Source of the DNA: Pandoraea sp.
GTDB taxonomy: Bacteria > Pseudomonadota > Gammaproteobacteria > Burkholderiales > Burkholderiaceae
Assembly (NCBI RefSeq): GCF_004297875.1
Contig: NZ_SCSK01000067.1
Span: 124,001-188,000 of the forward strand
Direction of reading: 5' to 3'
DNA length: 64,000 nucleotides
Below the pieces are notes generated by a model, which did no database searches, was not told where the DNA came from, and worked only from the letters and a program-made list of their open reading frames with translations. Made by a program: the position numbers and the translations under genes. Positions 2,556 through 9,707 of this stretch are shown here, in pieces; position 1 is the first letter of the stretch, and each line of letters opens with the position of its first letter.

Positions 2556-2584
2556 TTGACTCAAATCATTTCCGATATTATTAT
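2556..2584 (+). promoter_or_regulatory. Sigma70-like promoter of the marR(ectR)-ectABCD operon
   Basis: TTGACT (2556-2561), 17-bp spacer, TATTAT (2579-2584), in an AT-rich intergenic region. Confidence 0.65.
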
Positions 2585-2609
2585 TTCAGTACAAATTAAT
2601 TTATCGGAA
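2570..2609. promoter_or_regulatory. 40-bp dyad operator candidate: TTCCGATA-N5-ATTT-N6-AAAT-N5-TATCGGAA
   Basis: Concentric inverted repeats, both centred at 2589.5, overlapping the -10 box and predicted start site. Confidence 0.6.
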
Positions 2610-2628
2610 TTTTCCGGTTGCCCTGTCC

Positions 2629-3168
2629 ATGACAACGCCATCAACCAGCAGCCAGCCGTACGATTTGCGCATCCTGCGCGCACTGCGCCGCATCACGAGA
2701 TCGATTGCCCTGCATTCCCGGCAGTTGGCCGCCTGCAGCAACATTACGGCACCCCAATTGATTTGTCTGCGCGCTGTAATCGATCACGGCCCGTTGACCG
2801 CGACCGCGATCAGTCGGGAAATTCATGTCAGCGCCAGCACGGTGGTAGGCATTCTCGATCGCTTGGAAGACAAGGGGCTGATTCGCCGCGAGCGCGGACG
2901 CGAAGACCGACGGATCGTCTTTGTGTCGGCGACCGAGGCCGGCTTCAAACTAGCCAGCGAGACGCCCGCACCGATGCAGAAAAAGCTCTCGGAGGCGCTC
3001 AATGCATTACCCGAACTGGAACAGGCCACGATCACGATGGCGCTTGAGCGCGTTGTCGATCTGATCGAGTCGGGCGGTGTCTCCGCGGAATCGGCAAGTG
3101 AGCCCGCTCCACCGATTCTCGATGTACCTACGGGCGATGTGCCCCCCGAATCAGGATTGGTGGTTTGA
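2629..3168 (+). CDS. ectR: MarR family transcriptional regulator, candidate EctR
   Basis: MarR winged-helix pattern (LTATAISREIHVSASTVVGILDRLEDKGLIRRERGREDRRIVFVSATEAG); directly upstream of and overlapping ectA. Confidence 0.75.
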   Translation: MTTPSTSSQPYDLRILRALRRITRSIALHSRQLAACSNITAPQLICLRAVIDHGPLTATAISREIHVSASTVVGILDRLEDKGLIRRERGREDRRIVFVSATEAGFKLASETPAPMQKKLSEALNALPELEQATITMALERVVDLIESGGVSAESASEPAPPILDVPTGDVPPESGLVV

Positions 3169-3749
3169 TAGATAAAGACGGCGCTTACCCCAGCGAAAAT
3201 TCCAGGAGTCGCTTGGCCGTTCAAGATAAGCCCGGCTTATCCTTGAGGACACCCGATAGGCGCGATGGCGCGCAAATACATCGTTTGATCGAGCAGTGCC
3301 CACCGCTCGATCTGAATTCGCAGTACGCCTATCTTCTGCTGTGCGAGCATTTTTCGCCTACCTGCGTGCTGGCTCAAGCGGACCACCAGGTGCTCGGTTT
3401 CATCTCGGCCTATATGCCGCCGGCGCAGGCCGACGTGCTGTTCATCTGGCAAGTCGCGGTTCATCCGCAGGCACGCGGCCGTGGGCTCGGTCTGAGCATG
3501 CTGCAGACTTTGCTGCGACGACCGCATCTGAGTCACATTCAATTCATCGAAACAACGGTCAGCCCGCAGAACCAGGCCTCGCGGGGCCTTTTCGCGGCGT
3601 TGGCCACTGCATTGCAGGCCTCGATCCAAGAGCTGCCGCTGTTTGATCGTCATCTGTTTGCCGGCCACGGTCATGATGACGAACCGCTGCTGCGTATCGG
3701 CCCGTTCCAAGCCAGCCGGGTTTGGGCTCGGACAGACTGCGCGGCTTAA
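3165..3749 (+). CDS. ectA: L-2,4-diaminobutyric acid acetyltransferase EctA (non-ATG start; 3165 or 3213)
   Basis: GNAT protein LRTPDRRDGAQIHRLIEQCPPLDLNSQYAYLLLCEHF, typical EctA; followed by ectB, ectC and ectD. Confidence 0.93.
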   Translation: MIDKDGAYPSENSRSRLAVQDKPGLSLRTPDRRDGAQIHRLIEQCPPLDLNSQYAYLLLCEHFSPTCVLAQADHQVLGFISAYMPPAQADVLFIWQVAVHPQARGRGLGLSMLQTLLRRPHLSHIQFIETTVSPQNQASRGLFAALATALQASIQELPLFDRHLFAGHGHDDEPLLRIGPFQASRVWARTDCAA

Positions 3750-3825
3750 TGATTGGACGTGCGCGGAGGGATGTGCGCCGCCATGGCGCTCGTTGGCGCG
3801 TCCGATAAAACACGGAGAAACCGCA

Positions 3826-5133
3826 ATGGACTTAAAAATATTTGACCGAATGGAGTCGGAGGTGCGTGGCTACGTTCGGTCGTTCCCGGTGATTTTCAAG
3901 CAGGCCAGGGGTTCCGTGCTGATCGATGAAGTCAATAACGAATACATCGATTTTTTCAGCGGCGCCGGAACGCTCAACTACGGCCATAACAATCCGATTC
4001 TGAAAAAACGTCTGATCGAGTACTTGAATACCGATGGCCTGGTGCACGGGCTGGATATGGCGACATGCGCCAAAAAGCACTTTCTCGAGACGGTGGAGCG
4101 GGTGCTGCTCAAACCGCGCAACTGGCAATACACGCTGCAATTCACGGGCCCGACGGGCACCAACGCGGTGGAAGCAGCACTGAAGCTGGCGCGTCAGGTC
4201 AAGGGCCGCCAAAACGTCATCTCCTTTACTCACGGATTTCACGGCGTGACTGGCGGGTCGCTGGCTGTTACGGCCAACGCCAAGTTCCGCGGCGCTGCGG
4301 GGGTCGGGCTGGCCAACACAACTTTCATGCCGTTCGACGGCTATCTCGGCACCGACGTCAATACCATGGCTTATCTCGAGCGCATGCTGGACGACCCGAG
4401 CAGCGGTCTGGATCATCCGGCTGCAGTGATCGTCGAGACGGTGCAGGGCGAGGGTGGCGTGAACGTTGCCAGCAAGCGCTGGCTCAAGGAACTCGAGCGT
4501 TTGTGTCATCAGCACGACATGCTGTTGATCGTCGACGACATTCAGGTCGGCTGCGGACGCACCGGCAACTTCTTCAGCTTCGAGGTCGCCGGCATCAAGC
4601 CCGACATCATTACGCTGTCGAAATCGCTGTCCGGTTTTGGCCTGCCGATGTCGCTGGTGCTGATGAAGCCAGAGCTCGACGTGTGGAAGCCGGGCGCGCA
4701 CAGCGGGACATTCCGCGGCAACAACATGGCATTCGTCACCGCAGCGCAGGCGCTCGACACCTATTGGACGGATGGCACATTTGCCGATGAAACCGCGCGC
4801 AAGGAGCGCCTGGTGCGCGACTGGCTGGAGAATTTGGTTCATAGCTATCCCGGCGCGGGTTTGAGCGTGCGCGGCCGGGGGTTGATTCAAGGCCTCGCGA
4901 CCTCGGGGCGCAACGACATGGCAAATCGGATCGCGCGCGAGGCGTTCAGGCACGGCGTCGTGATCGAGACCTCCGGCGCCAACGACGAAGTTCTCAAAAT
5001 TCTGCCGGCGTTGACCATCGAGGACGACCTGCTCAAACGCGGGCTCGAAGTCATCGAGCAAAGTGTCGCGCACGTGCTGGCCAGCCAAGGCGCCGGCGCC
5101 CATGTCTTCAAATTCGGAGGGAACAAGCGATGA
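3826..5133 (+). CDS. ectB: Diaminobutyrate-2-oxoglutarate transaminase EctB
   Basis: MDLKIFDRMESEVRGYVRSFPVIFKQARGSVLIDE..., PLP aminotransferase with LIVDDIQVGCGRTGNFFSFE. Confidence 0.96.
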   Translation: MDLKIFDRMESEVRGYVRSFPVIFKQARGSVLIDEVNNEYIDFFSGAGTLNYGHNNPILKKRLIEYLNTDGLVHGLDMATCAKKHFLETVERVLLKPRNWQYTLQFTGPTGTNAVEAALKLARQVKGRQNVISFTHGFHGVTGGSLAVTANAKFRGAAGVGLANTTFMPFDGYLGTDVNTMAYLERMLDDPSSGLDHPAAVIVETVQGEGGVNVASKRWLKELERLCHQHDMLLIVDDIQVGCGRTGNFFSFEVAGIKPDIITLSKSLSGFGLPMSLVLMKPELDVWKPGAHSGTFRGNNMAFVTAAQALDTYWTDGTFADETARKERLVRDWLENLVHSYPGAGLSVRGRGLIQGLATSGRNDMANRIAREAFRHGVVIETSGANDEVLKILPALTIEDDLLKRGLEVIEQSVAHVLASQGAGAHVFKFGGNKR

Positions 5134-5528
5134 TCGTGAAAAATGTCAATGACGTGATCGGCACCAAGGACGAGATCAAGACCGATAACTGGCTGAGCCG
5201 ACGGGTGCTGCTCAAACAGGACGGCATGGGATTCTCCTTTCACGAGACCGTGATTTTTCCCGGGACCGAGACGCATATCCATTATCAGAACCATCTCGAG
5301 GCAGTCTGGTGCATCGAGGGTGACGGCGAAGTCGAAACCATTGCGGACGGAAAGAAATATGCACTGGGCCCAGGGGTCGTCTATGCGCTGAATGAAAATG
5401 ACGATCACTGGCTGCGCGGAGGAAAGGAGCCCTTGCGGGTGATTTGCGTTTTCAACCCGCCCTTGACTGGTCGGGAAGTGCACGATGCCGACGGCGTCTA
5501 TCCGATCGAGCAGCCTCAGGCCGCCTGA
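5130..5528 (+). CDS. ectC: L-ectoine synthase EctC
   Basis: MIVKNVNDVIGTKDEIKTDNWLSRRVLLKQDGMGFSFHET...HIHYQNHLEAVWCIEGDGEVE; cupin. Confidence 0.97.
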   Translation: MIVKNVNDVIGTKDEIKTDNWLSRRVLLKQDGMGFSFHETVIFPGTETHIHYQNHLEAVWCIEGDGEVETIADGKKYALGPGVVYALNENDDHWLRGGKEPLRVICVFNPPLTGREVHDADGVYPIEQPQAA

Positions 5529-5546
5529 GATGCAAAGGAGTACGAT

Positions 5547-6473
5547 ATGATTATATCGGTAAGCGATTTATACGCTTCTCGCACGACAGATGGCACTTCG
5601 GCCATCATTGCCCGGCAGGATCCGGTCGTCTATGACGGCGGACGCTATGCCGACGCACTGACTCAGGCGCAGTTGGCCGGCTATGAGCGAGACGGCTTCA
5701 TTTTGCTGGAAAATGTGTTCGACGACGCCGAGGTTCAGGTGTTGCTCGATGAAGTCAAGCGCATGAGCGCCGCGAAGGACATTGTCTCGCGCGACGAGGC
5801 GATTACCGAGCCGGGCAGCAACGCGGTGCGCTCGATTTTCCGGGTGCATGAACTCAGCGAGAAGCTGGGCCGGCTGGCGCGTGATCCGCGCCTGATTCAC
5901 GTCGCGCGCCAAATTCTGGGCTCGGAAGTCTATATGCATCAATCGCGCGCCAATATGAAACCCGGCTTCAAAGGCAAGGAGTTTTATTGGCACTCGGATT
6001 TCGAGACGTGGCATATCGAAGACGGCATGCCGGCCATGCGCGCGTTGAGCTGCTCGGTCCTGTTGACCGACAACAATGCCTGCAACGGCCCACTGATGCT
6101 GATTCCCGGATCGCAGCAGCAATTCATCGCCTGCCAGGGGCGTACGCCCGAGAACCACTATAAGCAATCGCTCAAGAAGCAGGAGTATGGCGTGCCCGAT
6201 CCGCTCAGCCTGAATCTGCTGGCGGAGCAGGGCGGCATTCAGGCAATGACGGCCAAGGCTGGCTCAGTCGTGTTTTTCGATTGCAACACGATGCATGGTT
6301 CGAACGGCAATATTTCGCCGTGGCCCCGCGCGAACGTGTTCATGGTCTACAACAGTGTCGAAAATACATTGGAGCCGCCGAAGCATGGGCTCGATCCGCG
6401 CCCCGAATACATTGCGGCACGCCGGAACTTCGCCGCCCTGGCGCCAATCGAGCAAGTCGCCATGGTGGCGTAA
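5547..6473 (+). CDS. ectD: Ectoine 5-hydroxylase EctD, Fe(II)/2-oxoglutarate dioxygenase
   Basis: Signature FYWHSDFETWHIEDGMPAMR plus distal DCNTMHGS iron-ligand motif. Confidence 0.96.
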   Translation: MIISVSDLYASRTTDGTSAIIARQDPVVYDGGRYADALTQAQLAGYERDGFILLENVFDDAEVQVLLDEVKRMSAAKDIVSRDEAITEPGSNAVRSIFRVHELSEKLGRLARDPRLIHVARQILGSEVYMHQSRANMKPGFKGKEFYWHSDFETWHIEDGMPAMRALSCSVLLTDNNACNGPLMLIPGSQQQFIACQGRTPENHYKQSLKKQEYGVPDPLSLNLLAEQGGIQAMTAKAGSVVFFDCNTMHGSNGNISPWPRANVFMVYNSVENTLEPPKHGLDPRPEYIAARRNFAALAPIEQVAMVA

Positions 6474-6512
6474 CCTGTGACCCCGGCCGGCTTGCGGGCC
6501 GGTCGCACTTAG

Positions 6513-6547
6513 CCGGGCCATGTCCTCGCGGACTGGTCCGGTTTTTT
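6513..6547 (+). terminator. Intrinsic terminator after ectD
   Basis: ccgggcca-t-gtcc-tcgc-ggac-tggtccgg hairpin followed by T7. Confidence 0.75.
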
Positions 6548-6585
6548 TGTATGCGCGGCGCGCGCGCGGCTGGTGCGATGGTCCG

Positions 6586-7358
<773 letters not shown>

Positions 7359-7362
<4 letters not shown>

Positions 7363-8051
7363 CGCAGGGGCAATCCTCGTTTAGGCAGTCGCCTGTCGAG
7401 ATAACGCACGGCGGCCGAGGCAAACAGTGTCAGAATCATATAGAGGCCGCCCACCATCGAGAGCGGAATCAGGTAGTTGAAGGTGCGGTCGCCAATGATT
7501 TTGGCGACGTTCAGCATTTCGAGTACCGAGACGACCGAGAGCACGGGCACATCCTTCATGATCGATACCAGGTAGTTTCCGAGCGCCGGAATGATGCGCG
7601 GGATGGCCTGCGGCACGATGACGACGCTGAAAGTGCGCAATCCGGAGAGATCGAGCGCGCGGGCGGCCTCGGTCTGGCCGCGCGGAATCGACTCAATGCC
7701 GGCGCGATAGACTTCCGAGGTATAGGCGCTGTATTGCACGCCCAGCGCAAGCGCGCCGGTCATGAACGCCGGCAGGACGATTCCGTAGTCGGGCAGCACG
7801 TAATACAGAAAGAACAGCTGCGCCAGTAGCGGCGTATCGCGCAGGAATTCGGTCAACAGTTGCGCCGGCCAGGCGACGATACGCAAGCTCGACGATTTGA
7901 GTGCAGCCAGCATCAGGCCGAGGACTGCCGCTACCACGAAGCCCAGCAGCGACGCTTCGATCGTGATGAGCATCCCCCTGAGCAGGATGGGCAGGATCGA
8001 TTCGGCGAATAGCCAGTTATTCGCCGTGTTCCAATGAAATCCGAACAACAT
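7359..8051 (-). CDS. ehuD: Ectoine/hydroxyectoine ABC transporter permease EhuD
   Basis: His/Glu/Gln-type permease (RGMLITIEASLLGF..., EAARALDLSGLRTFSVVIVPQAIPRIIPALGNYLVSIMKDVPVLS). Confidence 0.85.
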
Positions 8052-8053
8052 GC

Positions 8054-8725
8054 TCAGGCTCTCCGCGCACGCCAGCGGCCGACCGAGCGCTCAAGCAATT
8101 TCATCACTGCGGTCAGAACTAGGGCCATGGCGAAATACATGAGCAGCAGCACCGTGTAGACGGTCGTGCTGTCCTGGGTGAAGTTGCGGATCTGCTCGGC
8201 GCGAAACGCAAGGTCACCCAGGCTGATCAGAGAAACCAGTGCCGTGTCCTTGAGATTTTGCACGGCCAGATTGCCGAAGCTCGGCATCATCTCTGGAATG
8301 GCCTGCGGCAACGCAATGCGCCATAGTGTTTGGCGCGCGGTGAAGTCGAGCGCCTTGGCGGCTTCGTGCTGAGCCAGAGGGACGGCTTGAATCGCGCCGC
8401 GCACCACCTCGGCGCCATAGGCGCCGATATTCAGGCTCAACGCCAGCGTGCCTGCCACGACCGGCGGCAGCCGCAGATCGACGCCGGCCAACTGTCCGAG
8501 CACCGGCAGCGCAAAATACAGCCAGAACAATTGGACCAGCAGCGAGGTGCCGCGAAAGATCTCGATGATGCCGATCGAAAGACTCTTGATCGGCCAATAG
8601 CGCGAGAGCTTGCCCAGGCCGAACAAAAAGGCGAAGAAGGCGCCCAGCAGCGTCGAATAGACCGTGAGCTGTGCCGTAACCCACGCCCCTTGAAGCAGGG
8701 GCGTGGCGTAGCTGATCCAATGCAT
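8054..8725 (-). CDS. ehuC: Ectoine/hydroxyectoine ABC transporter permease EhuC
   Basis: Permease with EAAKALDFTARQTLWRIALPQAIPEMMPSFGNLAVQNLKDTALVS; start MHWISYATPLLQGAWVTAQ. Confidence 0.85.
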   Translation of the reverse strand: MHWISYATPLLQGAWVTAQLTVYSTLLGAFFAFLFGLGKLSRYWPIKSLSIGIIEIFRGTSLLVQLFWLYFALPVLGQLAGVDLRLPPVVAGTLALSLNIGAYGAEVVRGAIQAVPLAQHEAAKALDFTARQTLWRIALPQAIPEMMPSFGNLAVQNLKDTALVSLISLGDLAFRAEQIRNFTQDSTTVYTVLLLMYFAMALVLTAVMKLLERSVGRWRARRA

Positions 8726-8735
8726 GGTTCGACGC

Positions 8736-9593
8736 TTACTTGGTGCACAGTTGTGCCGTGGTCTTGTCAAAGGACGCCTGGGCATCCTTGTCGGTGAAGC
8801 CATAGTGCTTCATCAACTGCTTCCAGCCAGGGGTTTTCTTGAATTGAGCCAATTGGGTGTTGACGGCGTTGCGCAGATCCGTCGAATTCTGCGCGAAGGC
8901 GAAGCCCCCCCAACTGCGTGCCGGCTGACCGTGAACGATTGGATCAGTAAAGGGCTTGGCGGCTTGCACCTTGCCGCTCTTGGCCGCCAGCTGATTCACC
9001 GTCAGACCCGTTGCAGCATAGGCGCTGGCGCGGCCGGTCGTTACCGTTGAGATGGCATCGGCGTTGCTCGCGATAGTCACGATATTGCTGCTGGGCACGC
9101 CCAGTGCCTGAAGCATGTCGAGCTGATCGGCGCCCGCCATGATCGCGACCTTCTTGCCCGATTTGGCGAACGCTTCATACGAATCAAGATGAGCCGGATT
9201 GCCTTTGGCGACCAGCAAGCCCTCGCCATAGGAGCTGTCCGGCTCCGAGAACAGCACCTTTTCGCAGCGCGGCGGCAGGATCGCCATTTCCGCCGCAACC
9301 ATATCGAAACGGTTGGCTTTCAGACCGGGGATCAACGAGCCGAAGCCAGTGACGACCCATTTGATTTTCTTCACGCCGAGCTGCTTCATCACCTGCTTGG
9401 CAACGTCGGGGCCGATGCCTTTGGCTTGCTCGGACAGGTTCATGTAGCCGTATGGAATTTCATTGGCGATGGCGATGCGCACATAACCGCGCTGCTGGAT
9501 TTCCTTGAGCGTGACTGCGCCGGCTTGCTGTGCCAACCCGGTCGCCAAGGCGACGAATACCGTGGCGAGGGCTGTTGTGCGGGCCTTTTTCAT
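8736..9593 (-). CDS. ehuB: Ectoine/hydroxyectoine ABC transporter substrate-binding protein EhuB
   Basis: Signal peptide plus family-3 solute-binding protein; start MKKARTTALATV chosen because AAAGGA lies 7 nt upstream (rather than 9599). Confidence 0.87.
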   Translation of the reverse strand: MKKARTTALATVFVALATGLAQQAGAVTLKEIQQRGYVRIAIANEIPYGYMNLSEQAKGIGPDVAKQVMKQLGVKKIKWVVTGFGSLIPGLKANRFDMVAAEMAILPPRCEKVLFSEPDSSYGEGLLVAKGNPAHLDSYEAFAKSGKKVAIMAGADQLDMLQALGVPSSNIVTIASNADAISTVTTGRASAYAATGLTVNQLAAKSGKVQAAKPFTDPIVHGQPARSWGGFAFAQNSTDLRNAVNTQLAQFKKTPGWKQLMKHYGFTDKDAQASFDKTTAQLCTK

Positions 9594-9671
9594 AAGCATG
9601 TCCTTTGGGGAAAAATTGACCGAAATGACTTCCGCGCTTATTTGATTCGTCTAGCAACGATAGCAGAAATA

Positions 9672-9707
9672 ATTATACACAATGAAACGATTTCAGTTGA
9701 AATTAAT
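9672..9707 (-). promoter_or_regulatory. Promoter/operator candidate of ehuBCDA with ATTTCAGTTGAAATTAAT element
   Basis: TATAAT on the minus strand (9672-9677) with weak -35 (TTCAAC, 18-bp spacer) embedded in ATTTCAGTTGAAATTAAT (9690-9707), which contains the perfect palindrome ATTTCAGTTGAAAT. Confidence 0.6.

Follow-up and report, generated by a model that had tools for sequence, protein, structure and literature searches.

Genes and promoters of the ect–ehu locus

The analysed stretch of Pandoraea sp. DNA (64,000 nucleotides in full, referred to as the window) contains on the plus strand the gene ectR (2629..3168), encoding a MarR-family regulator of 179 aa (Pfam MarR PF01047, 7.1e-16) of an EctR/CosR-like clade, and four genes of the metabolism of ectoine, which protects cells against salt: ectA (3165..3749, exact start uncertain), encoding diaminobutyrate acetyltransferase (TIGR02406, 198.8 bits, cut-off 120.6); ectB (3826..5133), encoding diaminobutyrate transaminase (TIGR02407, 644 bits, cut-off 552); ectC (5130..5528), encoding ectoine synthase (NF009806, 194 bits, cut-off 128); and ectD (5547..6473), encoding ectoine hydroxylase (TIGR02408, 450 bits, cut-off 336.5). 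The Ehu transporter is encoded on the minus strand by ehuB (8736..9599), the gene of the ectoine-binding protein (TIGR02995, 282 bits, cut-off 190.9); ehuC (8054..8725) and ehuD (7359..8051), the permease genes (TIGR03004, 268 bits, cut-off 197, and TIGR03003, 287 bits, cut-off 205, respectively); and ehuA (6586..7362), the ATPase gene (TIGR03005, 404 bits, cut-off 345). These gene names, proposed earlier from the letters alone, were upheld by profile searches, with NCBIfam equivalog cut-offs passed by EctA, EctB, EctD and the four Ehu subunits and a family cut-off by EctC. The gene ectR is the first of the ect operon and reads into ectA here and in relatives; ehuBCDA runs in the opposite direction and converges on ectD. 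No EutD above the cut-off was found in 21 genomes including the source (best in the source genome, 68.6 bits vs the cut-off of 613), and Ehu is therefore probably used for osmoprotection.

In the phylogenetic tree, EctR is placed among MarR proteins of other Proteobacteria that are ect-linked or CosR-like, and is separated from the remaining MarR proteins; the support of this branch, in a tree built without the named EctR1 and CosR sequences, is 93/88, just below the 95/80 mark. The recognition-helix region STVVGILDRLEDK is invariant in 48 EctR proteins. The best PDB matches are generic MarR proteins, and no solved structure of EctR itself was found. Another MarR homologue with 35% identity, encoded in a further genome (G004), has no ect or ehu genes nearby.

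The sigma-70-type promoter of ectR-ectABCD (2556..2584, plus strand) consists of TTGACT, a spacer of 17 nt and TATTAT, with 10/12 consensus matches. The minus-strand −10 box TATAAT of the ehuBCDA promoter is present at 9672..9677, as had been described. Next to these promoter elements, the earlier note paired two 18-mers, at 2583-2600 and 9690-9707, as one operator-like element. Direct sequence check confirmed both positions and the difference in the central two bases alone, and also that the second 18-mer overlies the −35 region of ehuB. The perfect 14-bp palindrome claimed for 9690-9707 did not hold, since the reverse complement of ATTTCAGTTGAAAT is ATTTCAACTGAAAT; the inner palindrome is ATTTCA-GT-TGAAAT, with 6-bp arms and a 2-bp spacer. 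On the plus strand both 18-mers have the same reading direction, so that their orientations relative to their genes are opposite.

The 22-bp palindrome in the genome and in relatives

Each 18-mer is part of a 22-bp palindrome, WWTVATTTSWRYWSAAATBAWW, found upstream of ectR and ehuB alike by means of a symmetric matrix refined on the promoters of relatives. The predicted EctR operator of the ehuBCDA promoter (9686..9707, no strand assigned; 24.1 bits) contains the 18-mer 9690-9707 and is kept in two congeners and in most relatives with EctR. The predicted operator of the ectR-ectABCD promoter (2579..2600, no strand assigned; 22.6 bits) contains the 18-mer 2583-2600 and begins with the −10 box as its first six bases. 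Matrix scanning of the window revealed only these two sites of at least 8 bits, 9686..9707 being the higher.

The whole-genome search proposed in the earlier note was run on the source strain (4,420,788 bp, 70 contigs) by pattern matching with up to 3 mismatches, not by matrix scoring, and its strong matches were confined to ect and ehu. Exact matches of ATTTCAGTNNAAATTAAT are located at 2583-2600 and 9690-9707 only, and the next-best have 2 mismatches. The two sites with 2 mismatches are probable background: C4:54871 (13.3 bits), between a histidine kinase gene and an azoreductase-like gene, has no match in congeners, and C47:105756 (13.6 bits), upstream of an FAD-oxidase-like gene, is partly kept in one congener only. 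In 20 whole genomes of relatives, 1-5 sites per genome were found at up to 2 mismatches, those of ect and ehu foremost.

Scanning for EhuB yielded a sample of 80 ehu loci, of which more than 30, nearly all from Alcaligenaceae, have the convergent ehuBCDA / ectDCBA-ectR layout. In dozens of Alcaligenaceae the palindrome is kept at both promoters despite diverged flanking promoter DNA, with leave-one-out operator scores of mostly 15-29 bits; for 8400 shuffled promoters the 99.9% point was 11.3 bits. The EctR-bearing loci, 835 kb in total, contain 78 sites of 14 bits or more, 75 of which fall in ectR and ehuB promoters. Burkholderiales EctR proteins with 48-58% identity have related, mostly weaker, palindromes upstream. 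Chance resemblance between two AT-rich promoters can be given practically no weight: the two 18-mers are the sole matches in the window at up to 3 mismatches, and two matches did arise in 2 of 100 window shuffles (mean 0.07 matches), but this reading is refuted, as dozens of diverged loci have the palindrome at both promoters, as it co-occurs with EctR and as none of the shuffled promoters reached 20 bits.

A close EctR (97-98% identical) was found in only 2 of approximately 30 sampled congeners; these two share the locus and its two operators, and their promoter DNA is variable elsewhere. The ect–ehu block (window 2579-9707) is thus patchy in the genus and may have been gained or lost, and its proteins are closest to those of Alcaligenaceae.

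Occurrence of the ehuB site with EctR and at separated loci

With a matrix trained on ectR promoters alone and a threshold of at least 10 bits, the site was present at ehuB in 42 of the 48 loci whose genomes encode this EctR, vs 0 of 13 whose genomes were searched and lack it; reverse training recovered the site in 35 of 42 ectR promoters. The corresponding P = 4e-9 is indicative only, as the loci are non-independent and the EctR-minus set comprises mostly other taxa (Salinicola, alphaproteobacteria, Tepidiphilus). Two loci, L091 and L095, have low ehuB operator scores, and in Advenella the site is present at ectR and absent from the unlinked ehu, although EctR is encoded. Judging by these sites, EctR control of ehu is not universal.

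In Corticimicrobacter populi, ehu is located apart from ectR-ect, yet a site of approximately 26 bits is present at each promoter. In eight assemblies (L059, L084, L085, L091, L092, L102, L103 and L105), ectR adjoins ehu without ectACD. The gene ectC was found elsewhere in the genome in seven of them, mostly inside a distant ectABCD cluster (EctC approximately 50% identical), and in L084 no ectC was found in the genome. The remote ectA promoter carries a site of 19-27 bits in six of these seven; in the seventh, L092, it lies off the contig. The ehuB site is usually retained in the eight assemblies, being weak in some (approximately 5 bits in L091), and the site of ectR itself is lost in seven. 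Since the site is kept at unlinked ehu and at remote ectA, the operator follows the ectoine genes and not the neighbourhood. The single regulon for ect and ehu predicted in the earlier note is accordingly supported at the sequence level by the restriction of sites genome-wide, their conservation, their co-occurrence with EctR and their presence at moved genes.

The same observations bear on whether EctR itself is the binder. A different regulator could target the palindrome and control both operons, given that the binding of EctR is deduced and that in several relatives the ectR promoter has lost its site; nevertheless, these relatives keep the site at ehuB and at remote ectA, the palindrome co-occurs with this particular EctR, no regulator gene other than ectR is kept beside the ect and ehu operons, and the layout 8 + 2 + 8 agrees with the described EctR1 operator (PMC5924519). 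Control by such a regulator is thus highly improbable, and EctR is preferred as the binder.

Distant ectABCD clusters with EctC approximately 50% identical to that of the window (L182, L183, L185, L186, L187 and L188) have the same operator before ectA, as if it had been acquired after replacement of the cluster. An intact EctB-like protein (47-50% identical) is encoded between ehuA and ectR in L102 (12906-14150, minus strand), as well as in L084, L085, L091, L103 and L105. This protein has arginine in place of the PLP lysine and has lost the GTFRG motif, and by these residues it is likely a pseudo-transaminase. Related EctB-like copies with the lysine retained were found in L059 and L092.

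Predicted regulation and comparison with known systems

The sites, their placement and their association with EctR very probably reflect a repressor of the EctR/CosR type with a regulon of two operons, for ectoine synthesis and Ehu uptake; DNA binding, repression and salt response are predicted from protein families and operator position. In the ectR promoter the −10 box is the first arm of the operator, and in relatives (TTGAC-17-TATNAT) the distance from TTGA to the operator is identical in 32 of 34 promoters. In the promoter of ectR-ectABCD, an EctR dimer on 2579-2600 would lie over both the −10 box and the start region, and EctR would thus also control its own gene. In the ehuBCDA promoter the operator centre is 19 nt upstream of the −10 box, and in 43 of 47 ehuB promoters a TANNAT box begins 19 nt past the operator centre, which places the operator over the −35 element; a dimer on 9686-9707 would cover this region. 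Both placements, over −10 at ectR and over −35 at ehuB, fit steric repression. At low salt EctR would repress both operons, and at high salt repression would be lifted, so that ectoine is made and imported together.

EctR might instead bind both sites and, at ehu, act as an activator or merely fine-tune an otherwise constitutive transporter. MarR proteins can activate, and the −35 element of the ehuB promoter is poor, as in some activated promoters. This is unlikely, as the operator is centred approximately 31-32 nt ahead of the expected start and overlaps the −35 element and spacer, which favours blocking of polymerase, and as repression is the role described for EctR1 and CosR (PMC5924519, PMC7876524). 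Repression at both operons remains the preferred reading. Osmotic control may not depend mainly on EctR, because in Methylotuvimicrobium (Methylomicrobium) alcaliphilum salt induction persists after loss of EctR1 (PMC5924519).

EctR1 of M. alcaliphilum 20Z is likewise an ect-linked MarR repressor, and by description its operator is also an AT-rich pseudo-palindrome of two 8-bp half-sites with a 2-bp spacer, overlapping the ect −10 box (PMC5924519, PMC3979721). However, its gene is divergent from ect, whereas ectR heads the ect operon here, and EctR1 is known to act on ect and on its own gene, with no Ehu target described, whereas a second operator is present here at ehuB. Control of ectoine synthesis and solute uptake by one MarR repressor of the EctR/CosR type has an established precedent in CosR of Vibrio cholerae and V. 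parahaemolyticus, an EctR-related protein (51% to EctR1) that represses both ectoine synthesis and uptake of compatible solutes (PMC7876524). Its transporter targets are BCCT3, ProU and betIBA-proXWV (PMC7876524) and not Ehu, and its gene is mostly unlinked and its action more global, in contrast to the local regulon considered here. The ehuABCD-eutABCDE genes of Sinorhizobium meliloti, controlled by EnuR, encode a transporter of the same EhuABCD family, but this system is catabolic; its inducer is ectoine, not salt, and its repressor is a GntR/MocR protein (PMC5924519).

The co-location of ectR and ehu has been reported (PMC13342039). A regulatory link between EctR and Ehu, of which the earlier note was likewise not aware, was not found in the literature searched; most subscription papers lie outside it, and an earlier report is possible. 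In Devosia limi, ehuBCDA comes last in an ectABCD-ask-ehu operon placed under an EctR-like gene that is divergent from it, with a similar layout in Cereibacter. After ectD, on the same strand and with tiny gaps, come the aspartokinase gene and ehuBCDA (D. limi, L135:7408-13079; similarly Cereibacter flavus, L137:8535-12995), apparently as one operon. Co-control of ect and ehu would be achieved via a shared operon in Devosia and Cereibacter and via a second operator in Alcaligenaceae.

Work on EctR has so far dealt almost solely with its repression of ectoine synthesis. With the dedicated importer Ehu as a conserved second target, EctR would act as one switch balancing synthesis against import, the costs of which per ectoine molecule are approximately 40 ATP and 2 ATP, respectively (PMC13342039). 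It can be tentatively proposed, at somewhat less than even probability, that EctR of Burkholderiales is a regulator of ectoine homeostasis. Its operator would then be passed on to every set of ectoine genes that is gained or moved, as with distant ect clusters and unlinked ehu, and in individual species to further osmotic genes, for example those of a mechanosensitive channel and a sodium:solute symporter. With the 22-bp consensus, the regulon is testable in culturable strains of Alcaligenes, Pollutimonas and Corticimicrobacter, and Advenella, with ehu lacking the site, offers a clean natural contrast.

In Paracandidimonas soli, a site of 25.7 bits (L194:5296-5317) is located approximately 440 bp upstream of a sodium:solute symporter gene. 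In Pusillimonas caeni, the gene of a mechanosensitive channel (NF033912) is possibly a third target of EctR, as a site of 21.7 bits (L196:5167-5188) lies approximately 80 bp upstream of it.
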